Source: a virus. From it: a stretch of DNA of 54,800 nt. Of the stretch, positions 18,899 to 37,037 are shown piece by piece. The notes beneath the pieces are model-generated. The model was given only the letters and a program-made list of their open reading frames with translations, had not been told where the DNA came from and ran no database searches. The stretch is from positions 1 to 54,800 of the IMG/VR virus record IMGVR_UViG_3300043410_001533; one strand, given 5' to 3'. Positions within the stretch are counted from its first letter, which is position 1, and each line of letters starts with the position of its first letter. Position numbers and translations under genes: made by a program.

Positions 18899-18901
18899 CA
18901 G

Positions 18902-19701: not shown

Positions 19702-19735
19702 GTACCCCCCTCAAACGACCCTACTGCGAATAGGG

Positions 19736-20480: not shown

Positions 20481-20514
20481 TGTGTTGTCCTCTATGTGTT
20501 GTTAAAAAGGTTAT

Positions 20515-20544
20515 ATTATAACACAGGTGCTACAATCCTGTCAA
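20515..20544 (-). promoter_or_regulatory. Sigma70-type early promoter (20.5 kb)
   Basis: TTGACA, 18-bp spacer ending GTAGCACCTGTGT, TATAAT. The last ten codons and the TAA stop of the upstream gene lie in this promoter. The spacer is nearly identical to that at 22345-22373. Confidence 0.85.
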
Positions 20545-21253
20545 GTATTCCATGAAGCGAGTCCACGCCACCATTGCAGAAATGGAGCTTCGGGGCCTTT
20601 CGGTATTTGTCCTGCACGGCGTGATTGATGAACTTCGTCATTAGGACCGTGTGCGCACGGGTGAGCTTGTCGTAGGTGACGGCTTGCTCCGGCGTGAAAA
20701 AGCTCAGGTCCAAGCGATCGTGGTATTTGTTCGCTACCGCGTGAGCTTGGGCGGGTAGTAGTCCGATTACCAGCACGCCGGGACGGGCGTAGCCAGTGGG
20801 GTGCGGAATCGGCTGGGGGTTGTGCTTCGGACGATTGACCACGATCTGCGGGGCGTTCTCCAGCATTTGCGTCGACATTTTATCTGCAACCCGGGCGGCC
20901 ACGGACTCGGCGACAACGTCCAGCAGTAGCTCGAGTATATCCGCGAGCCTCGTCTTGGGGGTCTCCTTGCGTTCGGGCGCGGGGGTCGGGGCTAGTATAG
21001 GGGCAGGGGCTTCGACGGCCTTCGGAGGCGTCTTCTTCGACTCCTGCTGAGCCTTTTGCCGGGCGACTTCGATACGGTCTTTGTAGTTGAACACGCGCTG
21101 GTCGGTGACCTTGATCCAGCGGCTGGCATTGAGCACAGTCTGTGCTTCGCGCAATGCCTCTTTGCGGGTAAGATTCGGGCGTTGGCGAAAGACTTGCTCC
21201 ATACGGGCGAAGATCGCGCCTTTTTCTATGTGTGACCAGACGATTCGAGCCAT
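20516..21253 (-). CDS. Hypothetical protein with DUF2325-like C-terminus
   Basis: A 245-residue protein. Residues 1-70 form a basic helical region (MEQVFRQRPNLTRKEALREA, ASRWIKVTDQRVF), perhaps DNA binding; 70-150 is a Pro/Ala linker; 160-245 has a Rossmann-like pattern (PGVLVIGLLPAQAHAV ... AHTVLMTKFINHAVQDKYRK ... LHFCNGGVDSL) that weakly resembles DUF2325. It starts at ATG 21253 with ATAGAGGAAATC upstream; the longer frame is a shadow. The C-terminal ten residues (ILDRIVAPVL) are encoded by promoter sequence. Confidence 0.6.
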   Translation of the reverse strand: MARIVWSHIEKGAIFARMEQVFRQRPNLTRKEALREAQTVLNASRWIKVTDQRVFNYKDRIEVARQKAQQESKKTPPKAVEAPAPILAPTPAPERKETPKTRLADILELLLDVVAESVAARVADKMSTQMLENAPQIVVNRPKHNPQPIPHPTGYARPGVLVIGLLPAQAHAVANKYHDRLDLSFFTPEQAVTYDKLTRAHTVLMTKFINHAVQDKYRKAPKLHFCNGGVDSLHGILDRIVAPVL

Positions 21254-21278
21254 GATTTCCTCTATGTGTTTAAAAAGC

Positions 21279-21294
21279 GGGGGCCGAAGCCCCC
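21279..21294 (-). terminator. GGGGGC-UUCG-GCCCCC hairpin
   Basis: Perfect 6-bp GC stem, UUCG loop, followed by GCTTTTT on the minus strand: a rho-independent terminator for the DUF932 unit. It also lies between a possible promoter (21327-21354) and the start at 21253, so it could attenuate that transcript. Confidence 0.7.
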
Positions 21295-21326
21295 TTGAAA
21301 ATGGCAACTGCAGAAGCCATACCCCC

Positions 21327-21354
21327 ATTATACCAGCGCGAGAGCCTGTGTCAA
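21327..21354 (-). promoter_or_regulatory. Possible promoter overlapping DUF932 stop
   Basis: TTGACA, 16-bp spacer, TATAAT, where the TAATGG includes the gene's stop codon. Short spacer and lack of the CACCTGTG motif make this weaker than the others; it precedes the terminator hairpin. Confidence 0.45.
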
Positions 21355-22308
21355 TGCATCGCGTTTCAGGCGGGCACCGGCACCGAACCAAGCGGACTGG
21401 AGACGGGTGTCGCGCGATGCGGCTTTGCGCTCGTGATCGGCGAAGCGGGTGACGGCGTTCAGCAGTCCCCACGCGGTGCCCTGTGCAGTCTTGGCTCGCT
21501 GGCCCACGCCGTCGAGGTAGATCTTAGTCACCAGCTCGATCATCGGACGCTTGGCTTCGACGTCGATCGACTCGGCCTCGTCGCCGTAGAACACGTCGAG
21601 GAAGTAGCGGGTCGCCTCTTCTTTCGACACTTTGCGCTTGGACAGCGTGGTCGCGTTCGTCTTGAACTGGCTCCAAGTGTCCGCACACAAGCCCAACTCG
21701 GCCTTGAACTTCTCGGCGTTGAATCGGGTGCTGTGTGGCACGCGGATTTGGCCGGTCTTGTTCGCTACGGCCAGCGACAGCGTATTGTTGCACACGACAC
21801 GGGTGGTCGTGAACTGCGCAGTGTTCGACATTGAGCCGTCGCAAGACGTCGCCAGCAGTAGGTAGGGCAGGACCACGTCACCGCCGCCCACGTCGAACGA
21901 ATCCTCGGCCTTGGCCAATGCCCAGTAGGTGGAGCCGTTGCGCAGGACGCCAGCAGTCTCCATCTTGAAGTCGCCGCCTTCGGTCAGGTCGCGAAAGAAC
22001 TCCATCACGGCGCGGGGTTGGGTGATAAAGTAATTGCTCGACATGACGGACAGGGGTTCGCCGGTATCGGAGCGGTACAGTGCCCAGCGTGCGGGTACGG
22101 TCTGCATACGGACCGGATTGTCCTCCTCGTCGCGCACCTCGTAGGCGATCGCGCCCTTTTTGACCTCCCAGTCGAGGCCCGCTTCGCGAGTCCAGACGTC
22201 GAGGGGGGCGTCGGGGGTGAGCTTCTGTCCGAGTCCGTGCCAAGGGGTCTCGCCCGCGTATGCCATTGATGCTTTGCCAGCCGCATTGAAGTTAAGTTCG
22301 TGTGCCAT
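21328..22308 (-). CDS. DUF932 / phage-plasmid-like protein TIGR03299
   Basis: A 326-residue protein of the DUF932 family found on phages and plasmids (function unknown). Typical stretches: GETPWHGLGQKLTPDAPLDV (residues about 19-38), VMSSNYFITQPRAVMEFFRD (about 88-107), CDGSMSNTAQFTTTRVVCNN and NTLSLAV (about 155-180), TRFADHERKAASRDTRLQSA near the end. Length is normal. First gene after the promoter at 22345-22373 with ATAGAGGACACTAGACATC leader, so highly expressed early. It ends at a terminator hairpin. Confidence 0.88.
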   Translation of the reverse strand: MAHELNFNAAGKASMAYAGETPWHGLGQKLTPDAPLDVWTREAGLDWEVKKGAIAYEVRDEEDNPVRMQTVPARWALYRSDTGEPLSVMSSNYFITQPRAVMEFFRDLTEGGDFKMETAGVLRNGSTYWALAKAEDSFDVGGGDVVLPYLLLATSCDGSMSNTAQFTTTRVVCNNTLSLAVANKTGQIRVPHSTRFNAEKFKAELGLCADTWSQFKTNATTLSKRKVSKEEATRYFLDVFYGDEAESIDVEAKRPMIELVTKIYLDGVGQRAKTAQGTAWGLLNAVTRFADHERKAASRDTRLQSAWFGAGARLKRDALTQALALV

Positions 22309-22344
22309 GATGTCTAGTGTCCTCTATGTGTTGATGAAGAATGA

Positions 22345-22373
22345 ATTATACCACAGGTGCTACAATCTGTCAA
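22345..22373 (-). promoter_or_regulatory. Sigma70-type early promoter (22.3 kb)
   Basis: TTGACA, 17-bp spacer ending GTAGCACCTGTGG, TATAAT. Drives DUF932. Perfect consensus in both boxes. Confidence 0.88.
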
Positions 22374-22380
22374 GTATCGT

Positions 22381-22563
22381 CTAATCACCGAGTACTTCCC
22401 AAGTGTCGCCTTTGTGACCACACTCGTCGCACTGGTAGCCGTACTTGGCCCAAAAGATCTCGTGTCGAGGGTCCGATTTGGACTCCAAGAGCTTGACGCC
22501 CATACCCGCGTTGCAGATCGGGCAGGTATCTAGGCCCTCGTCCTCGACTTCGTCGTCATGCAT
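22381..22563 (-). CDS. Small zinc-ribbon protein
   Basis: A 60-residue acidic protein with CPIC at residue 14 and CDEC at about 45 followed by GHKG, a zinc-ribbon arrangement. The start overlaps the stop of the upstream gene. Zn-ribbons of this size in phages often bind host RNA polymerase or nucleic acids; which is unknown. Confidence 0.65.
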   Translation of the reverse strand: MHDDEVEDEGLDTCPICNAGMGVKLLESKSDPRHEIFWAKYGYQCDECGHKGDTWEVLGD

Positions 22564-22774
22564 AGTGTACTCCTACGATTAACGCCGCAAGCAGTGCGAC
22601 ACTGAGGGTCCAAAGGACCGCATCCCAAAAGACCTCGGCCGCTGGGCGGTACGTTGGCTCGAGTAGCGAGAGCTGGAGCCTTTCCATGTCCGCGCTTGGC
22701 TCCCACGTCTGCCGGGGCTGGTACATGCACCCGATTTGAATGCCGGTCTTGGTGGTGTAAGGGGTGATCTTCAT
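22556..22774 (-). CDS. Small membrane protein
   Basis: A 72-residue protein starting at ATG 22774 (overlaps the upstream stop, ATGA). It has a soluble N-terminal half (KTGIQIGCMYQPRQTWEPSA) and a C-terminal membrane helix (VLWTLSVALLAALIVGV). No family recognised. Confidence 0.6.
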   Translation of the reverse strand: MKITPYTTKTGIQIGCMYQPRQTWEPSADMERLQLSLLEPTYRPAAEVFWDAVLWTLSVALLAALIVGVHYA

Positions 22775-23067
22775 TTTACGATCTCCATTTGGCGGATGTT
22801 CATCACCTCGACTTCGCCGGTGTGCTCCTCGACCCACTCGGCCGACAGGTGTGCGCGGACGGCGTCCATGTCCAGCTGTGGGCGGGTCGTGAACTTGATC
22901 TCGATCTGGTGCTGGTCGCCACGGTAGATCGCGTTGCCGCCCTTGCGGAAGATCTCTTTCAGGTACTTCTCGCGGGCAGTCAGTGCCTTGAGCTGGTCAC
23001 GCACGCTGGCGAGTTCGTCCACCATGTCAGTGGTGATTGCGACGGGCTTAGTGGTAGTCTTTGCCAT
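22771..23067 (-). CDS. Small coiled-coil phage protein
   Basis: A 98-residue protein starting at ATG 23067 behind ATAGAGGACACACAATC. N-terminal coiled coil (MVDELASVRDQLKALTAREK) then a beta-rich part (GDQHQIEIKFTTRPQLDMDA). It is the first gene after the promoter at 23137-23166; the longer frame upstream contains that promoter and is a shadow. Confidence 0.6.
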   Translation of the reverse strand: MAKTTTKPVAITTDMVDELASVRDQLKALTAREKYLKEIFRKGGNAIYRGDQHQIEIKFTTRPQLDMDAVRAHLSAEWVEEHTGEVEVMNIRQMEIVK

Positions 23068-23136
23068 GATTGTGTGTCCTCTATAATGTCTATCGGTTGA
23101 GTGGTTACTGGATCGTCTTACCAACCCAGAATCTGT

Positions 23137-23166
23137 ATTATAACACAGGTGGGGTAGCCTTGTCAA
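23137..23166 (-). promoter_or_regulatory. Sigma70-type early promoter (23.1 kb)
   Basis: TTGACA, 18-bp spacer ending CCCCACCTGTGT, TATAAT. It overlaps the last ten codons and TAA of the DUF6378-like gene. Confidence 0.85.
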
Positions 23167-23443
23167 TACCCCCCTTCGGTATTCGTGTCGCCACGATGGT
23201 CGCATACCCCGCGATGTCCACCCATGAGTCGAGGTGGTTGGGGTCGCCGTTCAAAATGCGGGAGGCCTTGCACGCGATCATGTCGAGCGATTCACGCTGG
23301 TGGTACTCCAGCCGTTCCCAGCCGGGGCACTCGCGAAAGAGATCCTTCAGGGTCTGTGCGATCTCGGCTTGAATCGTGTAGTCGCCGTACGACTCGCCAC
23401 GCTCCGCGACCACCCCGTCTATGTTAAGAGATGACTGCGGCAT
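23138..23443 (-). CDS. DUF6378-like phage protein
   Basis: A 101-residue protein with the pattern of the DUF6378 phage family: RGESYGDYTIQAEIAQTLKD, ESLDMIACKASRILNGDPNH, DSWVDIAGYATIVATR. Function of the family unknown. The ATG at 23443 lies inside the end of the preceding gene (20-base overlap), with AAAGGAGGACTCGCTC upstream. Its C-terminus (DKATPPVL) is promoter sequence. Confidence 0.75.
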   Translation of the reverse strand: MPQSSLNIDGVVAERGESYGDYTIQAEIAQTLKDLFRECPGWERLEYHQRESLDMIACKASRILNGDPNHLDSWVDIAGYATIVATRIPKGGIDKATPPVL

Positions 23444-24692
23444 GAGCGAGTCCTCCTTTTTTATATCGGCTCTTGTACGAGCCGGGAGGAGCTTCTTTCA
23501 CCAGACGCTCCACGATGTCTTCGGGGTCGTAGCCTTTAAGCATTCCGCGAATCAGAGCTTCGGTCGTGGCCTGTCGTCCAAGCGTCGTGGGGCCGAATGC
23601 CCCTGCTAGGTCCTGTGGGTTCGCCATAACTTGAGGCTCGGCGAGATTCTTCAGCAAGACGTCCTCGTAGGGGCGCACTTGGCTGATTCGCAGTGGCGAC
23701 GCCGTACCGGTGCCGGGGCCGTAGGCTCCCGCCATTTGCGCTTCGCGCGTCATCAGTGTGCCGATCGTTTCGTCAGGTGTCATGTTCAGGAAATTCGGGG
23801 TGCGCAAATCCTGCGCCGCGTCCATCAGTTCGTCGGTCTTCTTATTCGTTACTAGATTCGGACCACCGAATAACTTCTTCAGGTAGTAGTCTTCCTTGTG
23901 GCTGGCTTGAACAGGCATCGAGAAAAGCTGGCCGGACATCCCGGGCGAGTACGCCACCTCTTCGACTGGGGCGATATATCCGAGGTTCCCGTGTCCGAGC
24001 GAATGGGACGCCACATTGCCGAGTCGCCGCACTTGGTTTACATCCGTCAAATGCGACGCGAAGTTACCATGCCCCTGTGCACGCATCATGTCGTACGCCA
24101 GTGCGTACAGCTCTTTGCCTTTCGCGGGCAGACTCTTCCACCACGCGGAATCGGGGTCCTTCAGACCGTACGTTCCGGGCTTGACGTCCATGGCGTAGAG
24201 TTCAGTCATCGTCGGGTGAGGCATATCCATACCGAACTGTGCCCGAGCCGCATTCCACTGGGGATCGCGCATCGCCGCTTCAGCCATGTAACGCTCCAGC
24301 TCGAAACCGAGCGGGGTCTTGTCTTTGTCAAGCCTTGAGGGTGACCACGTGATGTTCGGATGAATACCCCGTGCATGTGCCTCGTCTATGTCCTTAGGTG
24401 CTTTACTCTCGGGGTCGAGTCGGATTTTGCCGGTAGAGGGCATATAGCCACGCTGTACCGCGCCTTCGTTCGTCGAGGACATCGTCGCACGAATCGGCTC
24501 GCCACTGGCGGTCTTGCCAAACATCCCGGCCTTGTTGTACTGCTCGAGCACTTCAGCGGGGAGCATGCCCGCCTGTGCTTGACGCATACCCAGCGGGACG
24601 CGCTGTGCGCCGGGGAGAGTGGCAATGGCGCGGTGGCCCCTGCCTACTCCCTCCATTAGGTCAGCGAACGATAGGTTCTTTACTGGTGGCAT
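23424..24692 (-). CDS. Unknown protein, paralogue of 24997-26244, YKKGG tail
   Basis: A 422-residue protein. It aligns along its length with the 415-residue protein at 24997-26244: SFADLMEGVGRGH/TFKDLLTGLADVH at the start, FGKTASGEPIRATMS/FGTLPSGEPVRASVMS, LGHGNLGYIAPVEE/FGHGDFGTISPLNE, REAQMAGAYGP/REAQLAGAYGP, and GPTTLGRQATTEALIRGML/GPNTLGRALTTEETVARML. It ends YKKGGLAHAAVIS. No known motif; a virion-packaged protein or toxin-like enzyme are possible. It lies in the early region. Confidence 0.75.
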   Translation of the reverse strand: MPPVKNLSFADLMEGVGRGHRAIATLPGAQRVPLGMRQAQAGMLPAEVLEQYNKAGMFGKTASGEPIRATMSSTNEGAVQRGYMPSTGKIRLDPESKAPKDIDEAHARGIHPNITWSPSRLDKDKTPLGFELERYMAEAAMRDPQWNAARAQFGMDMPHPTMTELYAMDVKPGTYGLKDPDSAWWKSLPAKGKELYALAYDMMRAQGHGNFASHLTDVNQVRRLGNVASHSLGHGNLGYIAPVEEVAYSPGMSGQLFSMPVQASHKEDYYLKKLFGGPNLVTNKKTDELMDAAQDLRTPNFLNMTPDETIGTLMTREAQMAGAYGPGTGTASPLRISQVRPYEDVLLKNLAEPQVMANPQDLAGAFGPTTLGRQATTEALIRGMLKGYDPEDIVERLVKEAPPGSYKSRYKKGGLAHAAVIS

Positions 24693-24934
24693 TCTATCCC
24701 CTCAAGGTGATCATATGCGTCGCGGAATTCGTCGACTACGTAGTCGTAAGAATCGGAGGCGTTCTCACGCACCATCTCTTCCCACTCTAAGTTGTGGTCG
24801 CAGTATTCCGACTGGTCTTCGCACATTTCGGCCCGACGCAGTCCGGCGTAGGTCGCATCGTCAATACCCAATGCGGCAAGCGCGGCGCGAGCGCGGGTGA
24901 GCAATTCGCGAGATTCGGGTTTCATCGTAATCAT
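24680..24934 (-). CDS. Small acidic protein
   Basis: An 84-residue acidic protein with an N-terminal helix (ESRELLTRARAALAALGID) and Asp/Tyr-rich C-terminal part (YDYVVDEFRDAYDHLEG). First gene after promoter 24979-25007; overlaps the start of the paralogue gene by 13 bases. No family recognised. Confidence 0.6.
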   Translation of the reverse strand: MITMKPESRELLTRARAALAALGIDDATYAGLRRAEMCEDQSEYCDHNLEWEEMVRENASDSYDYVVDEFRDAYDHLEGIECHQ

Positions 24935-24978
24935 GGTAGTAGTCCTCTATAGTCTATGTGTGGTGGAAGGGAAGTCAT

Positions 24979-25007
24979 ATTATAACACACGTGGGACTAG
25001 GCGTCAA
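24979..25007 (-). promoter_or_regulatory. Sigma70-type early promoter (25.0 kb)
   Basis: TTGACG, 17-bp spacer ending CACGTGTGT, TATAAT. It overlaps the 3-prime end of the gene at 24997-26244. Confidence 0.75.
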
Positions 25008-26244
25008 GTGCGGTGGCCAGCCCGCCTTTTGCGTATCGACCCTTAATCGCTTCCAGCGGCACACCCTTGAACAGTTCATACGAGATCTCTTCGGGTGTCT
25101 GCCCACGGAGCATTCGCGCCACGGTCTCCTCAGTGGTGAGTGCTCGTCCAAGAGTGTTGGGTCCAAATGCGCGTAAAATGCTGTCTCTACCCTGCTCACT
25201 GGCTTTTTTCACCGTCGGCACAGACAAAGCCCGGAGGTCTTTCATGTCGAAAGGCCCAAGTCCTTGAGTCGGTGGTCCATAAGCCCCCGCAAGTTGTGCC
25301 TCGCGCAAAAGCATATAGCCCGCCATCTCGTCATCGGTGAGACCAGCAAATGCCCGAGGTCCCATTCCTTGGAGCTTCGTGCCGAACTTCGAAGGCAACA
25401 AATCGCGAAGGTAACTGTCTTCAAGATTTATGTCATCGACCGGCGACTTAAAAGATTGAGAGGACCACGGGGTCAATCCCCGGACTTTTTCTTCGTTCAA
25501 CGGCGAAATCGTGCCGAAGTCACCATGGCCGAAATAATGTGACAACACATTCCGAAGTCGGCGCGGGTGATTCACTTCAGTCAGTGTTCCTGCGGTTACG
25601 CCAAATTCACCACGAGGTGCACGCGACATATCGTACCCAAGCTGGTAGAGGTTAGTACCGGGGGATTTAAATCCTTTCCACCCGGGGCCACTGCCGCCTG
25701 CATCCATCGCGTTAATTTGGAACATTTGAGCGGATTTGGAACCAATACCGGTCTCACGCCCAGCCCGCACGTCGGCCTTATACTTTTCGAAGTTACGAGC
25801 ATCAATCGGACCGAGCATATTTTCAATCCGATTGAATAATGGGCCGGTCCGGTTGTAATCGTACGTGTCGTAGTCGTAGTCTTTCTTAAAGCGCATGGTC
25901 GGATTGCCATCGCCTTCCCGGTATGCTTTGGGCGTCTTGCTTTCCCCATGTAGAACTATATCGAATTTATCATTCGTATTTTCTTGGATCGGCACATTCT
26001 TACTTACCGGGCCGTCAACGTGGGGACTCATGACTGATGCCCGCACAGGTTCGCCGCTCGGCAATGTGCCAAATATCCCCTTGTCGCTCGCGATCTTGGC
26101 CATTTCGCCGTGCGTCTTGCCGCGCAAAAGATCTCGAATTTCGAACGCTTGAGCACCGGGTTTGGCCGCCGCCGCTTTGTGGACGTCGGCCAGCCCCGTA
26201 AGCAGGTCTTTAAACGTCAGTCCCTTCGGTATGGGCGGAGCCAT
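24997..26244 (-). CDS. Unknown protein, paralogue of 23424-24692, YAKGG tail
   Basis: A 415-residue protein, related end-to-end to the 422-residue protein at 23424-24692 (see there for aligned blocks). It has its own central insertion rich in Asp/Tyr (FKKDYDYDTYDYNRTG) and ends RYAKGGLATALDA. The ATG at 26244 overlaps the deacetylase gene by 35 bases, so they are co-translated. No catalytic motif is recognised; the conserved His/Gly-rich block [SY]xGHG[ND]xGxI could be functional. Confidence 0.75.
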   Translation of the reverse strand: MAPPIPKGLTFKDLLTGLADVHKAAAAKPGAQAFEIRDLLRGKTHGEMAKIASDKGIFGTLPSGEPVRASVMSPHVDGPVSKNVPIQENTNDKFDIVLHGESKTPKAYREGDGNPTMRFKKDYDYDTYDYNRTGPLFNRIENMLGPIDARNFEKYKADVRAGRETGIGSKSAQMFQINAMDAGGSGPGWKGFKSPGTNLYQLGYDMSRAPRGEFGVTAGTLTEVNHPRRLRNVLSHYFGHGDFGTISPLNEEKVRGLTPWSSQSFKSPVDDINLEDSYLRDLLPSKFGTKLQGMGPRAFAGLTDDEMAGYMLLREAQLAGAYGPPTQGLGPFDMKDLRALSVPTVKKASEQGRDSILRAFGPNTLGRALTTEETVARMLRGQTPEEISYELFKGVPLEAIKGRYAKGGLATALDA

Positions 26245-27079
26245 GGTATACCTCGTCGCTGATCGCCAGCGTTTGCAGGTGGATGTCGATCGTGTCTTGC
26301 ATATTCTTCGCGTATCCACCGGCTAGATTCCACACCAATGGGACCCCGGCTTCGCGTGCGGCAGTGAAGATACCACGATCGCGGGCCGCGAGACCCTCCT
26401 TGGACAGGTACCCGACGCCGTAGGGGTCTTGGTCCCAAGCGTCAGCACCGGCCTGATACAGTATTATACCAGCTTTAGAGTGTCGAATCAATCCCTTGGC
26501 GAACGACTGCCACATCGCGGCATTCCAGTCGGACTGGATCGGGCGTCCTATGTCGGGGCGGGTGACGTGCGTAACGCGACCCCGAATCATCAGGTGGTCC
26601 AGTATATCCTCGGTCCCGTCGCCGTGGTGACCATCTCCGTCTATAATCAGCACATTCTTCGCGCCGTTGCGCAGTGCCTTCATCGCGGTGATCATCAGCC
26701 CGTTGAACGTGCAGTACCCGTACCCATCCTCGAAGTGGGCGTGGTGGAAGCCCTGAGTCGCGGAGCACGCCACGGCACCACGCACGCCACCTTGCTGGAG
26801 CACGTGCTTAGCCGCCGCCCAGTGGCCAGCGTTCGAGTAGAGGAGCGAGTTCGTGATCTCCGGATCGATCGTGTTGAACCCGTTGGGGGCGACATTCTTC
26901 AGGATGCCACGGACATACTCGCGGTGGTGCGCCTCCTCGAAGTCTACCGCCGTGTATGGCTCGAAGTTCGAGCGCACGTCGCCCTCCAACTGGTGGATGA
27001 ACTCGGGAATCTTCCTAACGGAGATAAAGTCGTAGGAGACCTCTTGGGCCGGGTGGTAGAATACGGGGGTGTTAGTCAT
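26210..27079 (-). CDS. Histone-deacetylase-like (arginase-fold) hydrolase
   Basis: A 289-residue protein of the HDAC / acetoin utilisation / acetylpolyamine amidohydrolase superfamily, zinc enzymes that remove acetyl groups from lysines or polyamines. Catalytic His pair in GFHHAHFEDGYGYCTFN (H112-H113), zinc ligands D149 and H151 in LIIDGDGHHGDGTED, third ligand D213 in YQAGADAWDQDPYG, and the transition-state Tyr Y256 in NLAGGYAKN are all present, so it is probably active. The family's usual length is 300-370. First gene after a perfect promoter (27115-27143). Substrate unknown: host DNA-binding proteins, acyl-polyamines or acetylated enzymes are options. Confidence 0.88.
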   Translation of the reverse strand: MTNTPVFYHPAQEVSYDFISVRKIPEFIHQLEGDVRSNFEPYTAVDFEEAHHREYVRGILKNVAPNGFNTIDPEITNSLLYSNAGHWAAAKHVLQQGGVRGAVACSATQGFHHAHFEDGYGYCTFNGLMITAMKALRNGAKNVLIIDGDGHHGDGTEDILDHLMIRGRVTHVTRPDIGRPIQSDWNAAMWQSFAKGLIRHSKAGIILYQAGADAWDQDPYGVGYLSKEGLAARDRGIFTAAREAGVPLVWNLAGGYAKNMQDTIDIHLQTLAISDEVYHGSAHTEGTDV

Positions 27080-27090
27080 GGTAATGTCCT

Positions 27091-27333
27091 CTATAGTTTA
27101 TTGGTAGGGGACGAATTATACCACACCTGCGATAGATTGTCAACCCCCTTCTTTTTCTTGTCCTTCGGCGGCTCGGGCAGTTCAGCACGCTCGATGTCGC
27201 GCTCGTCGGCCTTTTCGCGAGTCGTGAAGCGAAATTCGCAGTGATTGCAAATCCGGCGACGGCGGGTGATGCCGTTAGCGTTTTGGTAGGTCGTCGTGAC
27301 CCGGGTGTCTTCCCCACACTTGATGCAGTTCAT
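27091..27333 (-). CDS. NrdR-like zinc-ribbon protein
   Basis: An 80-residue protein. CIKCGEDTRVTTTY, then GITRRRRICNHCEFRFTTRE (residues about 3-40) match the zinc ribbon of NrdR, the bacterial repressor of ribonucleotide reductase genes, including the RRRR-x-C and RFTT-x-E signature, but it lacks the ATP-cone. The start overlaps the DatZ stop (ATGA). As the last gene of the Z operon it might interfere with host dNTP control or be a general DNA-binding ribbon (inference). The C-terminal 22 residues overlap a promoter. Confidence 0.7.
   Translation of the reverse strand: MNCIKCGEDTRVTTTYQNANGITRRRRICNHCEFRFTTREKADERDIERAELPEPPKDKKKKGVDNLSQVWYNSSPTNKL
27115..27143 (-). promoter_or_regulatory. 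Sigma70-type early promoter (27.1 kb)
   Basis: TTGACA, 17-bp spacer ending CAGGTGTGG, TATAAT, followed by the ATAGAGGACATTACC leader of the deacetylase gene. It lies inside the coding region for the C-terminal tail of the zinc-ribbon gene. Confidence 0.85.
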
Positions 27334-27893
27334 AACCATCCCCCTGTAATTCCTATATCGTTGCACACGCGACGCACCGACTCGCGGGGCGAGAGCTTGG
27401 GATGCAAACGCTCGGCCTCAGTCACCATGTCGGACAGAATCGCCCGGAGGCCGTCCAACACTTGCTTAGCGTGCGCTCCGACTCCGTTGTCCTGCAGGAA
27501 AAAGATCGCCTCGATCTGGTCCGCAAGCTTCACGATCGTCTCTACTTCTGTGCCGCGCACTTGTCGGTAAGCCGACATGGTCTCGGCGTCCACTCGGTCC
27601 TCAGCCTTTTCCACGATACCCTTACCCCCTACGGCTTCTAGGTCTCGCTTGAAAGGCGTTGGCATATCTCCGGTGCGCACCTCGATGATGTCGTGCGCGA
27701 GTGCCCACTGCAGGAGCTTCAATTTGCCCGATTCCTGCAACAGGCCATTCCAGCGCATTGCGGCCGCAAGGGATCCCGCGATCACCGCTACTGCGAAAGA
27801 GTGCTCGGCCAGCGTCTGCTCGCGTGACGTCTGCACGATGTGCCAGCGACGAACGTGGCAAGCGCGAAGCTGTTCGTATACTGTTAAACTCAT
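27330..27893 (-). CDS. datZ: DatZ-type dATP triphosphohydrolase (HD domain)
   Basis: A 187-residue HD-domain phosphohydrolase of YfbR/DatZ type. Metal ligands visible: H31 (TLAEHSFAVA), H67-D68 (ALAHDIIEVRTGD) and D125 (VKLADQIEA). In known Z phages DatZ removes dATP so that adenine is excluded from DNA (S-2L DatZ is about 175 residues). Its location, in one operon with PurZ, MazZ and the polymerase, argues for DatZ rather than a housekeeping 5-prime nucleotidase. The start overlaps the upstream stop (ATGA). Confidence 0.88.
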   Translation of the reverse strand: MSLTVYEQLRACHVRRWHIVQTSREQTLAEHSFAVAVIAGSLAAAMRWNGLLQESGKLKLLQWALAHDIIEVRTGDMPTPFKRDLEAVGGKGIVEKAEDRVDAETMSAYRQVRGTEVETIVKLADQIEAIFFLQDNGVGAHAKQVLDGLRAILSDMVTEAERLHPKLSPRESVRRVCNDIGITGGWL

Positions 27894-27982
27894 AAGGGTG
27901 CGTCCTCGTAATTCTCTATGTTAAATGGTAGCCGGTAGAGCGGCTGGTGTTCAGGCAGTTTAGACGGGAATGGCCACGTCAC
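27890..27982 (-). CDS. Possible 30-residue peptide gene in Z operon
   Basis: A GTG-started frame that overlaps the previous stop by GTGA and the DatZ start by ATGA: both junctions have the 4-base overlap seen throughout this operon. Encodes a Pro/Tyr-rich peptide (EHQPLYRLPFNIENYEDAP). No ribosome binding site is strong, so this could be chance. Confidence 0.4.
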   Translation of the reverse strand: MTWPFPSKLPEHQPLYRLPFNIENYEDAPL

Positions 27983-28194
27983 GACTTGACGGCTTGCAGT
28001 CTGCGAATCTGGTCCGCTATCTGGTCGCCAGTCAGCTCGTCGAAGAGCTGGAATTCGTACTGCCGGGCCACGTGTTCGAGTGCTCCGTTCCATATCTTTT
28101 TCACTGCCTCCCTATTTTCATTATCTTCGGACCCGAGCACGTTACCAAACGTCTGCTCGTACCACTGATCGAATGCTTCATTTCTCTTCGACAT
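27979..28194 (-). CDS. Small helical protein in Z operon
   Basis: A 71-residue protein, predicted all-helical (RNEAFDQWYEQTFGNVLG, AVKKIWNGALEHVARQYEFQ), overlapping the MazZ gene by 17 bases. Similar short proteins with N-terminal helix and FEAWY-like motif occur in many phages. No function known; it is retained inside the Z cluster. Confidence 0.6.
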   Translation of the reverse strand: MSKRNEAFDQWYEQTFGNVLGSEDNENREAVKKIWNGALEHVARQYEFQLFDELTGDQIADQIRRLQAVKS

Positions 28195-28681
28195 GGCGCA
28201 TTATCCTTGTGTTAACGTCCACTTCCCACTGACGTTGCTCATTGATATCCATCTTGTCTTCTACCGCCTTATGTACGTCTATGCCGTTTTTGTGCGCGAC
28301 GTCCAGCAGTAGAATCATGATATCACCCATTTCGAGAGCGGCTTTTGGGTTACGAGCGTACTCGCCCACCTCCTCGTAGAGCTTGAGTAGGATGTCCGCA
28401 GTGGTACGCGCCGGAAAACGCGAGTCTGCCCACTTGGTAATTCTATCCTGAAGCTGTCGGATGTCGGCCCCGCCGCGCTTTTTGTACGCGTTGACGGCGC
28501 GGACCGCAAGGTCGGCATTTTTATCGCAGTTCCCCATAACCCCACGCAAGTGGTGACGGACTTCGAAAGACGCGACGGTTGCGCCTTGCGCATCGACAAT
28601 TTCGGCCGCCCGCTCGGGGTGGACTGCCCATGGAAGTTCATTCGCTTCATCCGTGTGTACTGTTGATTCTACCTGTAGCAT
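28178..28681 (-). CDS. mazZ: MazZ-type nucleotide pyrophosphohydrolase with N-terminal extension
   Basis: A 167-residue protein. Residues about 95-130 carry the MazG metal-binding motif EExxE...ExxD (E103, E104, E107, E117, D120 in LYEEVGEYARNPKAALEMGD). In Z phages MazZ turns dGTP/GTP into the monophosphate that PurZ uses. Residues 1-68 are an extra module (ELPWAVHPERAAEIVDAQGA ... AVNAYK) of a type seen in other phage proteins. I start at ATG 28681 because GGAGAG precedes it and the longer frame lies inside purZ. Confidence 0.85.
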   Translation of the reverse strand: MLQVESTVHTDEANELPWAVHPERAAEIVDAQGATVASFEVRHHLRGVMGNCDKNADLAVRAVNAYKKRGGADIRQLQDRITKWADSRFPARTTADILLKLYEEVGEYARNPKAALEMGDIMILLLDVAHKNGIDVHKAVEDKMDINEQRQWEVDVNTRIMRHVEEK

Positions 28682-29774
28682 ATACTCTCCAAAGTTCAAG
28701 AATTCGCGCCAGCCGAGCATCTGAGCTGTACTGAGGCATTGAGTAAACATCTTTATATTCCGGTCCAAGTCCGATCCAACGCACGAATGTGTTCGGCGTA
28801 CGCTCGATTGACTCCACGATATCCCGTACCTCGTCCTCGGACCTGCAGTAATTGACGAAGTTCAGGAAGATCTCACGGGCACCATTATACTCGATCGCTT
28901 CGCCGATCTGCTTGCGGCTGAACGTAAAAATACGGCGCGGGAGCTTGGTCACAGTGGTCAGCTCGGTCTTTTGCCCGATCTCCTCGAACGTGATCTCCAG
29001 CTGGTCGTCGTAGCACGGACCGGAGTACCCGACTTGCGTCCCGTGTGTGTCGAACCGGTTGGCCACGCGGATCGGGTAAGTGCGGCAAGTGCCGACGACG
29101 GTGATGTCGGGGAGGTCCATGACTTGTGGTAGCAGATCGTGCGGAATGCCGCAATCGGCGAGGATTTGCCACAGGCTCACATCACGCGAAGTGGTGTAGG
29201 GGTAGAAGCCGTGGTACATCGACAGCCCGTACCCTTGTGCACCTTCTACCAGCACGTGCTCGGCTTCACGCAGTGCGGTGCGATACGCAGACACTGTGAC
29301 TACGTATTTCGCCAGCTCCGCACAATTGGCGGCTATATTCAGATCGTCCGGATCGCGCCGAATTCGCTGAATCATCGCGGCACCCACGCCCTTTTTAGTC
29401 GAACCGATCTTGGTCATTGGCCCGGCTTCCTCTTCGATGTGACGATCGGTCACTACGGCGGCGTGCGGGTGGATCGCGATTCGCACATTCTTGAGCAAGT
29501 CCGCGCACGCGGCGATCTCTTCGAGCAGTTGCTGGGGGTTTATGAGTGAGCCGGGGCCAAGTAGCACCTGCTTGAGCATGGGCGACACGATGCTATTCGC
29601 AAGGTGCGTATGGATGAACTTGCGTCCAGTCTTGCTGATGTACGTGTGCCCCGCATTGGGTGCCCACGCGGTGATTACCGTATCCGGTGCTTCGTCCTCC
29701 GCGATCTTGCCTACGATCAGCCCCTTGCCGGTGCTTCCATATTGCAAATCGACTACGACTTTAATCTTGTCCAT
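28647..29774 (-). CDS. purZ: PurZ, adenylosuccinate-synthetase-like enzyme for 2-aminoadenine
   Basis: A 375-residue homologue of PurA. Conserved: VVVDLQYGSTGKGLIVG (P-loop-like start), APNAGHTYIS, GPGSLINP, VEGAQGYGLSMYHGFYPYTT (residues about 190-210), GTCRTYPIRV. In PurA the first motif is GDEGKG with catalytic Asp13; here it is GSTGKG, with Ser14 in that place. This substitution marks PurZ, which condenses dGMP with aspartate to give dSMP, later cleaved by host PurB to dZMP. Start at ATG 29774 (AGAGGTA upstream). Overlaps MazZ by 35 bases. Confidence 0.95.
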   Translation of the reverse strand: MDKIKVVVDLQYGSTGKGLIVGKIAEDEAPDTVITAWAPNAGHTYISKTGRKFIHTHLANSIVSPMLKQVLLGPGSLINPQQLLEEIAACADLLKNVRIAIHPHAAVVTDRHIEEEAGPMTKIGSTKKGVGAAMIQRIRRDPDDLNIAANCAELAKYVVTVSAYRTALREAEHVLVEGAQGYGLSMYHGFYPYTTSRDVSLWQILADCGIPHDLLPQVMDLPDITVVGTCRTYPIRVANRFDTHGTQVGYSGPCYDDQLEITFEEIGQKTELTTVTKLPRRIFTFSRKQIGEAIEYNGAREIFLNFVNYCRSEDEVRDIVESIERTPNTFVRWIGLGPEYKDVYSMPQYSSDARLARILELWRVYATGRINSTHG

Positions 29775-29779
29775 TACCT

Positions 29780-31615
29780 CTATCCTTTCGCTTCGTACCA
29801 GTCTTCGCCTATACCCCAGTCGCACGTGATCGGAACACGCAGATGAATGGGGCATTCTACACCATCAAAGGTCGTGTAGATTCGTGCTACCTCTTTCGCT
29901 TTGTCAAGTGAGTCATTATCGAGCGATATGCCCACCTCGTCGTGCACCGTCAGCAGTAGTCGCCCACAGCCTTCGGCGGTTAAATACTTGTGAAGCTCGA
30001 TGAGCTTTTGCTTCATGCAGTCCGCGCTGGTGGCTTGGTAAATCAGCCCCGACGCCTTGTGCACGAATTGGCCGCCCGGAAAGCGAAGCCTCCGGCCCAT
30101 CACCGAATGCACCGATCCGCGCTCTTTGGCAATGTTACTCGCCTTCTGTGCGGTGTTGCGCATCCCGGGGTTGGCGGTGTGGTACTTCTCGAACAGTGCC
30201 ATCGCCTCAGGTCCAGCCTTAAGGAACACATTGCCGTTGGGTCCCACCTCTTCGGTATATGGCAGTCCACACTCTTGCGCTAGTCGCCCCGACCCCATAT
30301 TGAACGCCAGCCCGAGGTTAATCGCCTTCGAAGACGGGCCACCCGCGTACTGAGCGTTCCGGGGTATGCCGGTGAGATCAGACACCAACTGGTGAAAGTC
30401 CAAATCGGGGTTCGCACGATAGGCCTCAAGAATCGCGGGAACCTGACCGTAATGGTTAGCCACTCGGAATTCAAATTGTGACCAATCCAGCCCCATCCAT
30501 TTAGCACCCACATCAGCCTTGAAAATCGGCCGGATAAGCGATTTGATGGCAACGTCTCTAGATGGTATCTGCTGGAGAGCGGGATTGGTAACTGATAGAC
30601 GTCCAGTGCCAGTGCCCGCCTCAGAGTCGTTTTTAGTCTGATTATAATTGCAGTGAATGATGCCATCGTGTTCATGCCCTAAGATGTGACCCGATAGGAA
30701 TGTATCCCGGGTCTTGAGCATTTTGCGCAAGTCGAGAATCATCTTTGCGGCGGGGTGCTTCATGCGACGTAGGCAGTCGGCGTTGATCGAGGCCTTGCCA
30801 CCGTCGGTCTTGTCCGCTTTTGTGCCATCAATCAGGTACCACTCATTATCGTCCCCGAGTGTCGGCTTGAATAGGTCCGCGATCGATCCGGAAGGGTTCG
30901 GGTTGACCTCGAAACCGGCCAAGCTATTCAGATCCCTCTGCATATTGTCAACGCGCACGGTGAGGTCACGAACGGCCTTCTCAGCCAGCCCTACATCCAC
31001 CCGCACACCCTGCTCTTCCATGTCCATGATGACTGGCATCAAGTCGCGCTCGAGCTTGTGCACTTGGGCGAGATTCTGCGTCCGCATCTGCTCCTCTTGC
31101 CACTGGTACAGTGCCAGCGTCACCACAGCGTCTTGAATCGCGTATTTCGACACGAGACTGATGGGGGCGCGAGAAATGTTCGGCATCTGTGCGTTGCGAG
31201 TCGGGCGACCACCGAAGAGGCGCGACATCTCCTCGTAGATCTCCTCGTCCTTCTTCATCCCGCAGTATTTACGAGCGAGGAAGTCGAGGGCGTACGTGGG
31301 TTCGTGCTCCGAAATCAGAGCGGCACGGGTCATCGTGCAGTCGATTCGGTCCAGTGGTAGTGCGACTCCGGCTTCGCGCAGGAAGTGCAAGTCGAACTTG
31401 AGATTATGGCCAACCCACAGCCCGACGCGCTTCTCTTTGATAAGATCGTTGAGCCATGCGACGATGTAGGGGTCGGACCGGACGTCCCAGTAGCCCGAGT
31501 ACCCCGGGAATGCGATGGAAATGCCGAACAGCTTGTCGGCCCACCACTTCAATCCCGTGGTCTCGGTGTCTATGACCACGACAGGTTCGTAGTCAATGCG
31601 TGGGAGTTCGGTCAT
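29780..31615 (-). CDS. dpoZ: DpoZ-type family A DNA polymerase with 3'-5' exonuclease
   Basis: A 611-residue replicative polymerase. Exonuclease: D16/E18 (VVIDTETTG), D75 (HNLKFDLHFL), Y158 and D162 (YAIQD), so proofreading is intact. Polymerase: motif A D377 (GLDWSQFEFRV), O-helix K430 (SSKAINLGLAFNMG), motif C H558-D559-E560 (TVHDEV). In the O-helix, E. coli Arg754, Phe762 and Tyr766 align with G426, L434 and F438. No 5'-nuclease domain. In known Z phages a PolA relative beside purZ inserts Z in place of A. It overlaps the SSB-like gene by a TGATG junction. Confidence 0.92.
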   Translation of the reverse strand: MTELPRIDYEPVVVIDTETTGLKWWADKLFGISIAFPGYSGYWDVRSDPYIVAWLNDLIKEKRVGLWVGHNLKFDLHFLREAGVALPLDRIDCTMTRAALISEHEPTYALDFLARKYCGMKKDEEIYEEMSRLFGGRPTRNAQMPNISRAPISLVSKYAIQDAVVTLALYQWQEEQMRTQNLAQVHKLERDLMPVIMDMEEQGVRVDVGLAEKAVRDLTVRVDNMQRDLNSLAGFEVNPNPSGSIADLFKPTLGDDNEWYLIDGTKADKTDGGKASINADCLRRMKHPAAKMILDLRKMLKTRDTFLSGHILGHEHDGIIHCNYNQTKNDSEAGTGTGRLSVTNPALQQIPSRDVAIKSLIRPIFKADVGAKWMGLDWSQFEFRVANHYGQVPAILEAYRANPDLDFHQLVSDLTGIPRNAQYAGGPSSKAINLGLAFNMGSGRLAQECGLPYTEEVGPNGNVFLKAGPEAMALFEKYHTANPGMRNTAQKASNIAKERGSVHSVMGRRLRFPGGQFVHKASGLIYQATSADCMKQKLIELHKYLTAEGCGRLLLTVHDEVGISLDNDSLDKAKEVARIYTTFDGVECPIHLRVPITCDWGIGEDWYEAKG

Positions 31616-31878
31616 CAGAATGGGATGTCGTCGAATTCAACGCCGGAATCACTCGCTGGTCGGCCAGATGCCGCAGTTCCGCCCTCTTTGCGATTGATCT
31701 TGATGGAGAAGTATTTCTTGCCTTCCATCTTGCCACCGGCCTTGCCTTCATTAACCCACGCGGAAAGCCAGTAGTCCACGCCCTCTACGTTGATCGAGCC
31801 AGTGAATTCCGGATGCTTGTCCGTCTTGCGATTCTCAGCGCGAGCCATAATGCCCGAATTGGTGTTATCGTATGCCAT
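31615..31878 (-). CDS. SSB-like protein with SSB C-terminal tip
   Basis: An 87-residue protein: an N-terminal beta-rich part (FTGSINVEGVDYWLSAWVNE), a central basic stretch, and a C-terminal acidic tail ending VEFDDIPF, nearly identical to the DDDIPF tip through which bacterial SSB binds replication partners. It is the first gene of the Z operon, right after the consensus promoter and before the polymerase. The OB-fold itself is not certain at this length; a short ssDNA-binding or SSB-mimic protein fits best. Confidence 0.7.
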   Translation of the reverse strand: MAYDNTNSGIMARAENRKTDKHPEFTGSINVEGVDYWLSAWVNEGKAGGKMEGKKYFSIKINRKEGGTAASGRPASDSGVEFDDIPF

Positions 31879-31915
31879 CTTGAATGTCCTCTATCTGTTG
31901 GTTACTGAAGTGGCT

Positions 31916-31944
31916 ATTATACCACCCGCGATACTGTCTGTCAA
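31916..31944 (-). promoter_or_regulatory. Consensus sigma70 promoter of the Z operon
   Basis: TTGACA, 17-bp spacer ending GCGGGTGG, TATAAT, then leader with ATAGAGGACATTCAAG before the SSB-like gene at 31878. No further promoter or terminator is seen down to 27143, so it probably serves eight genes including dpoZ, purZ, mazZ and datZ. Confidence 0.85.
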
Positions 31945-31947
31945 TTA

Positions 31948-33363
31948 CTACAATTTGTACCCGTTGTACCCCTCCACTATGTCCAGCACACGCTTCGATC
32001 GAGTCATTCCCACGTAGAACACTCGAACCTCGTCGTCCGGTGACTTCTCGGCGGTCTGCTGTACCCGCGTGGTCATGTCGGTCAGAAGAACGACTCGGTC
32101 CGCTTCGTGACCTTTTGCCGCGTGGATCGTAGAAAGGCGGATAGTCGGCTCAGTATCGAGGTCAGCGTCTGCGTAGAAGTCCACGACTCGGCCGGGGATT
32201 TGGAGGGCCACGTAGAATGGGGTGCGACCAAGAGTGGCGAGGTCGCCCGCTTCAAGTAGCCGCCTTGTCTCAGCACTGGAAATCGTGAATATTGCGTTTC
32301 GTTCTCCATCAGTAATCCGCTCACCTCGACCCAGCTTGCGAAATGCTCGTAGTCCGGCGGCGTATCGATTTTGATACAGTCCGGGGCGGCCCGACTCGCG
32401 CGTGTACGGGATGCGGCGTTCAATGAGCGATTGTTCAACTTCGCGGAGGACTGAATGCGTCCGTCCCAATAGTAGTATATCTTCCCCGTGGGTGATCTCC
32501 ACCGAGTTGATCGATCCGTGTACTCGGACCAGTCCCATATCTGCTTTGGGACTAAACTCCTTATCCACGCGGAATGCGACTCGACGGATAAGCTCTTGCG
32601 ATCGTGCGTGGACTGAAGCAGGAAGTCGATGCGAGTACGAGAGCACATGGCTATTACCCTTGTGCTTGTCCGTAAATCTTGCCATACCGTGTACATCCGC
32701 ACCGGCCCACGTATAAATCGCCTGATCGTCGTCCCCTGCGATATGCACTTCGTGAGAACGTCTGACGAGCTTCTCGATAACAGCCCACTGAAGAGGTGAT
32801 AGGTCTTGAGCTTCGTCGACAAATACAACCTCTGCGTCTGCTCGCACTGCGCCCCGGGCGGCACGTTCAAGCATATCGGTGAAATCGTAATATCCGTACG
32901 TAGATTTCCAATCAGCATATGCCCGAACGAACGCATTGAACTCGGCCCGAGTGCCCGGCCGGTCCGAGATGTCGTATACTTCTGCCGGATTGGAAAAGGT
33001 GTTCCGGGCATAATTGAGTAAGTCAAGGTAGAAGTCTCCATCGGCACGCTCCTCATCATCTTCCGGGGATTTACCAATGATCGGTATCCCCATTACGGTT
33101 GAAAATTCGCGAAGCTTCATCGGGTCCACGACTTGCGTCTGCCGCAAGCCCATGTGCCGGAAGGCCATCGCATGAATGGTGGACACATTGTCCGATCGCT
33201 TGAGGCCCAGCCGGGAGAGTGCCTCGGATGCCGCCGCACGGGTGAAAGATACGAAGGCCACACGTTCGGCTTGAACGCCTGAATCCCTAGTCTCTTTCAC
33301 ACGCCGGAGTAGCTCCGTGGTCTTGCCAGTCCCGGGAGGTCCGTAGATGGCGTTAACTTGCAT
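31948..33363 (-). CDS. UvrD/Dda-like SF1 DNA helicase
   Basis: A 471-residue helicase. Motifs in order: Walker A GPPGTGKTTELL (residues 9-18), Ia VAFVSFTRAAASEAL, II VVFVDEAQDLSP (DEAQ 183-186), III IAGDDDQAIYTWAGA, V STIHAAKGHEADRVVLLTD, VI RVFYVGMTRSKRVLDI. These are all the SF1A set. Length is short for UvrD and similar to T4 Dda, which helps start replication and recombination. The start overlaps the upstream stop (TAATG). Confidence 0.9.
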   Translation of the reverse strand: MQVNAIYGPPGTGKTTELLRRVKETRDSGVQAERVAFVSFTRAAASEALSRLGLKRSDNVSTIHAMAFRHMGLRQTQVVDPMKLREFSTVMGIPIIGKSPEDDEERADGDFYLDLLNYARNTFSNPAEVYDISDRPGTRAEFNAFVRAYADWKSTYGYYDFTDMLERAARGAVRADAEVVFVDEAQDLSPLQWAVIEKLVRRSHEVHIAGDDDQAIYTWAGADVHGMARFTDKHKGNSHVLSYSHRLPASVHARSQELIRRVAFRVDKEFSPKADMGLVRVHGSINSVEITHGEDILLLGRTHSVLREVEQSLIERRIPYTRESGRPGLYQNRYAAGLRAFRKLGRGERITDGERNAIFTISSAETRRLLEAGDLATLGRTPFYVALQIPGRVVDFYADADLDTEPTIRLSTIHAAKGHEADRVVLLTDMTTRVQQTAEKSPDDEVRVFYVGMTRSKRVLDIVEGYNGYKL

Positions 33364-33644
33364 TAGCCGCGATGCTTCACTGCACGCACTGCCCACATCT
33401 GGGCCGTGACCGCGTGCGCAATCGCCGTGTTGAACATCTCCTGCACTTCGCCATCGTGATAGGCGTCGCGCAGTGTGCGCAGATAGACGACTGATGTGTC
33501 GAACGCTTGATTCACGTTGCGGATTCGACGCTCCTCGTCGCTTTCGGCTTGAGGAATCGGAGACACAGGCATCGTAGTCTCCATCTCTTTAAATTCGGAG
33601 AGCACATCTTCCGCTGGTGTCTCCACTTGCTTTTTGGTAGCCAT
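33363..33644 (-). CDS. Small hypothetical protein in replication region
   Basis: A 93-residue protein with a disordered acidic N-terminal half (VETPAEDVLSEFKEMETT) and a helical C-terminal half (SVVYLRTLRDAYHDGEV, MFNTAIAHAVTAQMWAVRAV). It overlaps the helicase start and follows the UUCG hairpin at 33659-33674. No family recognised. Confidence 0.6.
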   Translation of the reverse strand: MATKKQVETPAEDVLSEFKEMETTMPVSPIPQAESDEERRIRNVNQAFDTSVVYLRTLRDAYHDGEVQEMFNTAIAHAVTAQMWAVRAVKHRG

Positions 33645-35315: not shown

Positions 35316-37037
35316 GTTACGATCGTTTCGGTCGTTAATGCTCGTCCGCACGAACTCGCTCACGTCCTTTTTCTCTCGCAACGCCTGAGTGACGGCCGCG
35401 TCCACGGTGCCCTCGGCGATGATGTCAATGTAGGTCACGCTTCGCGTCTGCCCGATCCTGTGCGCACGGTCCTCGGACTGCTCGCGATCGGTGAAAGAGA
35501 ACGAGTTCGAGTAGTACACCACCAACTCCGCACGGGTCATGTTCAGACCCACACCTCCGGTGGCCGCGTTGCCTACGAGGAATCGCGCCTTACCAGTTTG
35601 GAACAGGTTCTGCACGTTGTGGTCGCGATCGTTTTCGCTGATGCCGCCGTGAATCTCCACCACGGAGTCGTGGCCGTACTTCTCGCGCAAAGCCTCACAC
35701 ACCATGCGGATTTCCTCGATGAATCGACACCAGACGATCGTGCTGGCGTCGTTCTCCTCGGCTATAGCGAGTAGCTCCTCGACTTTTGGGTTCTTTCCTG
35801 CAATGCGATTGTGCGAGAACTTCGACGCGTCGTAGAGGTCGGGGTTGCGCTCGAAGGTGATGATACCACCGGCGATCTCTTGGAGCCGGAGCATTCGCTC
35901 GAGCACTGTCTTGACGGTGATTCCTTGATCTCCAGATACCGTCTTGTCACGTTTAGCAATGTCTTTATATAGTCGTTTTTGTTCATCAGTTAGCTGGACC
36001 TCGCGGGTCTGGTACACTTTTGGTGGTAATTCCGTCAGCACTTCGGACTTGCGCACTTGATAGATGAACGGCGAGATCAGCTCGATAAGCTCTTCCATAT
36101 TCTGGTAGCCCACCACTTGCCGATCCTCGTATCCGCCCATAATCGCGTACCGATTGCGGAAAGAGTAGAAATCCCCGATTCCGATAATGTTCGGGTCGAG
36201 GAACTCGAATTGCATGAAGATGTCCATCGGGCCATTCGCCACTGGCGTGCCCGTCATGATCACCTTGTAATTCGCGGATTTGCCCAGCTTGACACAGTTC
36301 TTACTGCGCACGGCCGAGTGATTCTTGATCATATGTGCTTCGTCCACGATCATTCCGACGCGGGTACTGCAGTCCACGAACTTTTGCGCGAGACCCACCG
36401 CACCACCGGCCGCGAGTGACTCGGTGCCGACGATCAGGAATTTCAGGCGGCCATCGGTCGTGGTGTTCCACGTGTCGAACGCCTTGGGCTTTCCAGTGTC
36501 GAGAATAAACGTGTCGCACTCCATCGGGCAGTGGATGAGCACCTCGCGCTCCCAGTTCTTGCGCGTGCTGAACTTAGTGACGATTAGCACCCGGTCCACC
36601 TTGGCGTCCATGAAGTAGGCGGAGAAGAGATCGAGCGAAGTCTTGGTCTTTCCTGTACCCATGTCCATGTAGAACGCGAAGGTGCTCTTGTTCCACGCAT
36701 GGTCGAGGCCCTTGAGCTGGTACGGCCGTGGCGTGGTCTTGAAAGAGTATACGGGCGGGAATGCCGCTATTTGGTTCGTGCGTACGCGCTCGATAGTCGT
36801 AGTTGCAACCGTGCGAGCATCGTCTGTAAATGTGTCAGCATCAAAATTACCCAGCAGGAACTCGCTATTAGCGCGTAAAGCAGGAGCTGTCCACACGCGG
36901 CGACGAGAATCCCAACGCCGATTAGGTATCCGGCGAATCTTGTCCACCATCCACGGCGGCGAGTGGATGATGAATCGGCTGGTCTTTGCATCGTAAGCGA
37001 TCTGCACTTTAGAATTCTGATCGGAACTTGGGTTCAT
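35295..37037 (-). CDS. SNF2-family (SF2) helicase
   Basis: A 580-residue protein. Residues 1-75 resemble the HARP-like N-terminal domain of small bacterial SNF2 enzymes (YDAKTSRFIIHSPPW ... IPNRRWDSRRRVWTAP). Helicase motifs: GTGKT (127-131), DEAH (232-235), TGTPVANGPMD, HGGISENDRDHNV and the final SEDRAHRIGQTRSV. SNF2 enzymes translocate on dsDNA and remodel or anneal it. It overlaps the primase stop by 29 bases, so both are translated together. Confidence 0.9.
   Translation of the reverse strand: MNPSSDQNSKVQIAYDAKTSRFIIHSPPWMVDKIRRIPNRRWDSRRRVWTAPALRANSEFLLGNFDADTFTDDARTVATTTIERVRTNQIAAFPPVYSFKTTPRPYQLKGLDHAWNKSTFAFYMDMGTGKTKTSLDLFSAYFMDAKVDRVLIVTKFSTRKNWEREVLIHCPMECDTFILDTGKPKAFDTWNTTTDGRLKFLIVGTESLAAGGAVGLAQKFVDCSTRVGMIVDEAHMIKNHSAVRSKNCVKLGKSANYKVIMTGTPVANGPMDIFMQFEFLDPNIIGIGDFYSFRNRYAIMGGYEDRQVVGYQNMEELIELISPFIYQVRKSEVLTELPPKVYQTREVQLTDEQKRLYKDIAKRDKTVSGDQGITVKTVLERMLRLQEIAGGIITFERNPDLYDASKFSHNRIAGKNPKVEELLAIAEENDASTIVWCRFIEEIRMVCEALREKYGHDSVVEIHGGISENDRDHNVQNLFQTGKARFLVGNAATGGVGLNMTRAELVVYYSNSFSFTDREQSEDRAHRIGQTRSVTYIDIIAEGTVDAAVTQALREKKDVSEFVRTSINDRNDRNLLGTLA

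Follow-up and report, generated by a model that had tools for sequence, protein, structure and literature searches.

A putative 2-aminoadenine genome operon, with an adjoining deacylase gene, in a lineage of uncultivated tailed phages

Gene sets for replacing adenine by 2-aminoadenine (Z) in DNA are already known from several phages. In Acinetobacter phage SH-Ab 15497, Salmonella phage PMBT28 and Klebsiella phage K21lambda1, an orf247-like gene, UvrD, DpoZ, SSB (single-stranded DNA-binding protein), PurZ, MazZ-1 and DatZ stand together as one block, and PSA28 has the same block with SSB placed after DpoZ. Burkholderia phage Bm1 has the order SSB-DpoZ-PurZ-MazZ-DatZ. In Vibrio phage phiVC8 (PurZ structure 6fm1, DpoZ structure 7pbk) a primase gene separates DpoZ from PurZ, while cyanophage S-2L (PurZ 7odx, DatZ 6zpa) has the order PurZ-MazZ-DatZ but no DpoZ, its genome being copied by PrimPol, its only polymerase. 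Arthrobacter and Gordonia phages also make Z via a PurA-family enzyme, PurZ0, which reportedly occurs with DutZ/DmtZ in place of DatZ/MazZ (PMC12884076). Here we describe a locus of this kind in the 54,800-base virus record IMGVR_UViG_3300043410_001533 of IMG/VR, the whole of which is referred to as the window. Its minus strand carries, within a block at 26.2-31.9 kb, the genes SSB-DpoZ-PurZ-MazZ-orf71-DatZ-zinc ribbon, led by a sigma-70 promoter that matches the consensus perfectly. From its sequence we are highly confident that this is a functional Z-genome operon, and the phage very probably has Z-DNA. What is new is the lineage, its gene for an HDAC-family deacylase, and the divergent PurZ of a sister clade.

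The original prediction had placed a PurA homologue with GSTGKG, a MazG-type protein, an HD hydrolase and a PolA-type polymerase in one operon behind a consensus promoter. All four genes indeed lie on the minus strand, and the promoter matches the consensus at 12 of 12 positions (TTGACA-N17-TATAAT with an extended TG, 31944..31916), with a ATAGAGGACATT leader between it and SSB; promoter matches with no more than one mismatch number six in the window against 0.11 expected. The same prediction suggested that the gene order may be a new arrangement. This did not hold up: since SH-Ab 15497, PMBT28, K21lambda1, PSA28 and Bm1 share the block, the arrangement is a variant of a known one, Bm1 already having the same order and SH-Ab 15497, PMBT28 and K21lambda1 differing mainly in the place of SSB, which follows DpoZ in these phages and precedes it in the window. 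The PurZ proteins of the latter three phages are 49-51% identical to that of the window. Their MazZ has another, longer N-terminal part (DUF5664 in the literature) where that of the window is short, and they have no match to orf71, the NrdR-type zinc ribbon or the HDAC gene. Bm1 differs in having a tRNA between SSB and DpoZ, a PurZ only 39% identical, a post-DatZ gene annotated as a helicase and no match to the HDAC gene. The PurZ and DpoZ of phiVC8 are 48% and ~41% identical to those of the window, and its gene between PurZ and DatZ (MazZ-2 type according to the literature) is unmatched by the window's MazZ. The active-site residues of the S-2L proteins are as in the window, which unlike S-2L has a DpoZ. 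PurZ0 is ~30% identical to the window's PurZ and forms a separate clade. The extras specific to the lineage are orf71, the NrdR-like zinc ribbon, the HDAC-family deacylase and a short N-terminal extension of MazZ.

Across the four Z proteins, nearly all substrate and metal residues checked, taken from published lists for the S-2L and phiVC8 enzymes (PMC8342488, PMC8065100, PMC8599892), are retained or conservatively replaced. DpoZ scores 770.8 bits on the curated model NF038380 for aminoadenine-incorporating polymerases (cut-off 500), and its nearest solved structure is phiVC8 DpoZ (7pbk, E 8e-136). It keeps the equivalents of L455, of the Tyr-to-Phe steric gate F459 and of G548, and a sequence alignment with E. 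coli Pol I shows extra residues at three places around the polymerase site. By alignment, DpoZ thus appears to be phiVC8-like, with the same signature residues and the three known insertions. The MazG-type protein has the motif EExxE...ExxD and hits PF04447 (dATP/dGTP pyrophosphohydrolase), its gene sits between purZ and datZ, and it is identical to S-2L MazZ at all 13 residues checked, including the metal-ligand and guanine-pocket residues E35, E38, E50, D53, I56, D60, K76, N80, R83 and W85. Its start was set at the ATG at 28681 and the TTG at 28768 was rejected, because homology to distant relatives begins only at ~28681 and a stop codon lies between the two positions in the close relative L012. 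The ~70-aa extension at its N-terminus has no counterpart in S-2L MazZ and does not resemble the corresponding region of the SH-Ab and PMBT28 proteins. DatZ has S-2L DatZ (6zpa) as its best solved relative and is also identical at 13 of 13 residues checked; among these, the metal ligands H34, H66, D67 and D119 (S-2L numbering), predicted from the outset as the intact H/HD/D set of an HD hydrolase, are all present, as are the phosphate contacts R19, K81 and K116 and the base contacts W20, I22 and P79.

By homology with characterised relatives, and following the pathway given in PMC12884076, MazZ would convert dGTP to dGMP, PurZ would combine dGMP and aspartate, with ATP or dATP, into succino-2-aminodeoxyadenylate, and host enzymes would take this product to dZTP. 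DatZ would remove dATP, and DpoZ would replicate the genome while favouring dZTP over dATP, probably assisted in replication by SSB and the UvrD-like helicase. Virion DNA would then carry Z in place of A, forming three hydrogen bonds with T, and should be poorly cut by restriction enzymes that have A in their sites. An active pathway could also replace adenine only in part, yielding mixed A/Z DNA. S-2L PrimPol accepts A and Z alike, which means that A would not necessarily be kept out by the choice of the polymerase alone (PMC8065100), and the window phage likewise has a putative primase of the AEP type (37009-38571). Yet dATP-destroying DatZ and DpoZ are both present with all checked residues kept, and full substitution has been reported for phages with this gene set (PMC12884076), which makes partial replacement quite improbable.

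PurZ, whose start was corrected to 29774 (an ATG common to the relatives), scores 350.4 bits on the curated NCBIfam model NF038379 for succino-aminodeoxyadenylate synthase (cut-off 300); as a control, none of 14 well-known cellular genomes exceeded this cut-off with its own PurA. Its nearest solved structures are 7odx and 6fm1. The base pocket, the Asp loop TTVTK and the donor site, which is N-F-x-N and of the ATP type, match those of S-2L and phiVC8. Residues identical to S-2L are those at 21-23, 49-53, 130-132, 146, 190, 203, 205, 240, 241, 244, 273-276, 280, 305, 306, 335 and 336, and the only differences among those checked are C204 to T, at a family-variable position, and Q308 to N, as in phiVC8. 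A 43-row tree puts the window's PurZ in the company of phage PurZ, at a large distance from E. coli PurA and PurZ0. A position inside the PurA clade, which the original prediction had named as an outcome that would refute it, was therefore not what the tree gave, in a limited test with E. coli PurA and two PurZ0 as the only outgroups. PurZ also matches PF00709, the Pfam family of PurA, as would an ordinary host-derived adenylosuccinate synthetase raising adenine supply during infection. We consider this extremely unlikely, given the Ser in GSTGKG that replaces the catalytic Asp of PurA (GDEGKG), the donor site N-F-x-N where PurA has T-K-x-D, the score above the PurZ cut-off, the tree position and an adjacent dATP-destroying enzyme that would counter adenine supply.

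Relatives from IMG/VR formed 56 distinct-contig groups when contigs with identical stretches of 400 bases at gene starts were joined. All four Z genes are found in 48 of these groups, usually in the order orf247, orf93, UvrD, SSB, DpoZ, PurZ, MazZ, orf71, DatZ, zinc ribbon, HDAC, orf440. Against four relatives, the ratio of nonsynonymous to synonymous substitution (dN/dS) is 0.02-0.16 for the four Z genes, which are under strong purifying selection. With frames, active sites and promoter intact, such selection acting and all four genes conserved across the lineage, a non-working relic is hardly credible. Every sequence-level test of Z synthesis came out positive, be it the score thresholds of the curated models, the residues for catalysis and specificity, the tree, the gene order or the selection estimates, and we found no evidence against a functional Z operon in the sequence itself. 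What weighs on the other side is that metagenomic sequence is blind to the base itself, Z being read as A, that the lyase and kinases would have to come from the host, and that archaeal PurA is absent from the tree.

Beside the window's clade stands a sister clade (L101-L106, L109, L113-L116, L118, L121, L136, L137 and others), in which DpoZ is 69-77% and MazZ mostly 57-68% identical to the window and DatZ is also kept, but PurZ is only 42-45% identical. The one PurZ of this clade that was scored, from L104 (L104:9372-10394), reaches 277 bits, below the NF038379 cut-off. The clade has GSCGKG for GSTGKG, Gln for the base-pocket Asn (TQAGHT) and LTFAD for FLNFxN at the donor site; E. coli PurA shares the Asp of this donor motif (LTKLD) and, as judged by eye, so do the PurZ0 enzymes of Wayne (LTMLD) and Sapo (LSFAD). 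In the tree, the sister-clade PurZ falls inside PurZ, beside L031, which has an ATP-type donor site. Its grouping with PurZ0 was rejected by an approximately unbiased test (p 0.0098), for a group that was named after the motif had been seen and that has long branches. Because a PurA/PurZ0-like donor motif is combined with a placement inside PurZ beside an ATP-type protein, we predict, with the chances about even, that this PurZ has reverted to GTP as its donor in place of ATP; its base pocket also appears to have changed. In the primary paper on the enzyme, PurZ0 reportedly uses GTP; a literature search on PurZ0 and GTP as donor yielded nothing useful. One sentence of PMC12884076 gives the donor preferences of PurZ0 and PurZ in reverse order, in conflict with that paper's own introduction.

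Features of the Z block and its neighbours in the window
Feature	Position	Strand	Basis
HDAC-family zinc deacylase, 289 aa	26210..27079	-	PF00850 2.2e-27; 9gkv alignment
NrdR-type zinc-ribbon protein, ~80 aa	27091..27333	-	PF22811 2.5e-8; ATG adjoins datZ stop
Second perfect promoter, within zinc-ribbon gene, pointing into HDAC gene	27115..27143	-	12/12 consensus + TG; kept in close relatives
Putative DatZ, HD-family dATP triphosphohydrolase, 187 aa	27330..27893	-	phrog_7076 3e-30; DatZ 6zpa 4e-19
orf71, small conserved protein	27979..28194	-	carried by most members of the window's clade
Putative MazZ-1-type (d)GTP diphosphohydrolase, 167 aa	28178..28681	-	PF04447 2.4e-8; start corrected
Putative PurZ, succino-2-aminodeoxyadenylate synthase, 375 aa	28647..29774	-	NF038379, GSTGKG, TTVTK, NF-x-N donor site, PurZ clade
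Putative DpoZ, aminoadenine-incorporating family A DNA polymerase with 3'-5' exonuclease, 611 aa	29780..31615	-	NF038380; phiVC8 DpoZ 7pbk
SSB, 87 aa	31615..31878	-	phrog_7364 2.5e-13
Z-operon sigma-70 promoter ttgacaGACAGTATCGCGGGTGGtataat	31916..31944	-	12/12 consensus + TG; same place in close relatives
UvrD-like helicase, upstream neighbour	31948..33396	-	PF00580 4.7e-28; likewise placed in PMBT28 and SH-Ab 15497

The block had been proposed to span 27091-31944. The Z genes do lie there, but the left edge has to be moved, as the block runs on into the HDAC-family gene at 26210-27079, which follows the zinc ribbon under its own perfect promoter. The active-site pattern of the deacylase (HH, DxHHG, GADxxxxDP and GGY when aligned with 9gkv) is intact, comprising the zinc ligands, the catalytic His pair and the GGY loop, and dN/dS against four relatives is 0.11-0.25. 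The gene is present in 37 of the 39 relatives that have a PurZ at least 50% identical to the window's and extend 1.5 kb or more past the zinc ribbon, and in none of nine sister-clade contigs. A search of isolated Z phages found none, Rhodococcus phage E3 being the sole isolate matched and the other matches being uncultured large phages; a literature search for a phage HDAC or deacylase tied to Z-DNA returned nothing relevant. The HDAC gene belongs to the conserved block but to no known Z system. That it has its own promoter, is so frequent and is missing from the sister clade with the altered PurZ would fit a role in Z-DNA but also simple linkage, and since the counts follow phylogeny they are no proof of a functional link to Z. 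We regard it as doubtful that the deacylase is a genuine extra part of Z-DNA biology in this lineage, and the same judgement covers the example roles considered with it: an amidohydrolase with a modified nucleotide as its substrate, or an enzyme acting on Z-DNA-neutralising polyamines or on acetylated proteins of host replication or defence.

The original prediction counted two small genes before datZ. One of them, orf71, stands, although it was not found in the sister clade or in isolated Z phages; the other, orf67 (27890-28093), is spurious, because its dN/dS exceeds 2, and it overlaps orf71 and is patchy among relatives. Some relatives (for example L022, L026 and L029) carry variable inserts of several hundred to ~2000 bases in the orf71-DatZ gap, which is a hot spot of sequence gain or loss within the operon. 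The zinc ribbon occurs in the sister clade as well as in that of the window and has no match in the loci of isolated Z phages. Its equivalence with the 'DNA helicase' encoded after DatZ in K21lambda1 and phiVC8, or with the PMBT28 counterpart, was rejected, as there was no meaningful alignment and no tblastn match.

At the other end of the block, SSB has a DDIPF-type C-terminal tip and aligns with the SSB of SH-Ab 15497 and PMBT28, and the UvrD-like helicase also adjoins the Z cluster in isolated Z phages. Further replication genes in the window are this helicase, a second helicase and the AEP-type primase at 37009-38571, which has a TOTE-primase-like domain and co-occurs with DpoZ. Terminase, portal, head, lysozyme and tail-fibre genes are found elsewhere in the window, which is thus from a tailed phage. 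Exact TTGACA-N16-18-TATAAT promoters repeat on the minus strand through the early region, 18750-31944 (positions 31944, 27143, 23166, 22373, 21354, 20544, 19701 and 18779), and are kept in relatives. Several have a CACC(T/C)GTG-like spacer and a ATAGAGGAC leader, and together they may form a shared operator/promoter array. A lone perfect promoter points the opposite way (38599-38627, plus strand); its spacer has the inverted repeat CCACttctGTGG, and it is kept in several relatives.

A new lineage of uncultivated tailed phages, with longest contigs of 55-59 kb, thus joins those that very probably have 2-aminoadenine DNA, and it offers new DpoZ, PurZ, MazZ and DatZ sequences for enzymology and for synthetic Z-DNA. 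It also presents two testable oddities, a conserved deacylase gene adjoining the Z cluster and the changes in the donor site and base pocket of the sister-clade PurZ. If true, the return of the latter from ATP to GTP would oppose a one-way evolution of PurZ from GTP to ATP.

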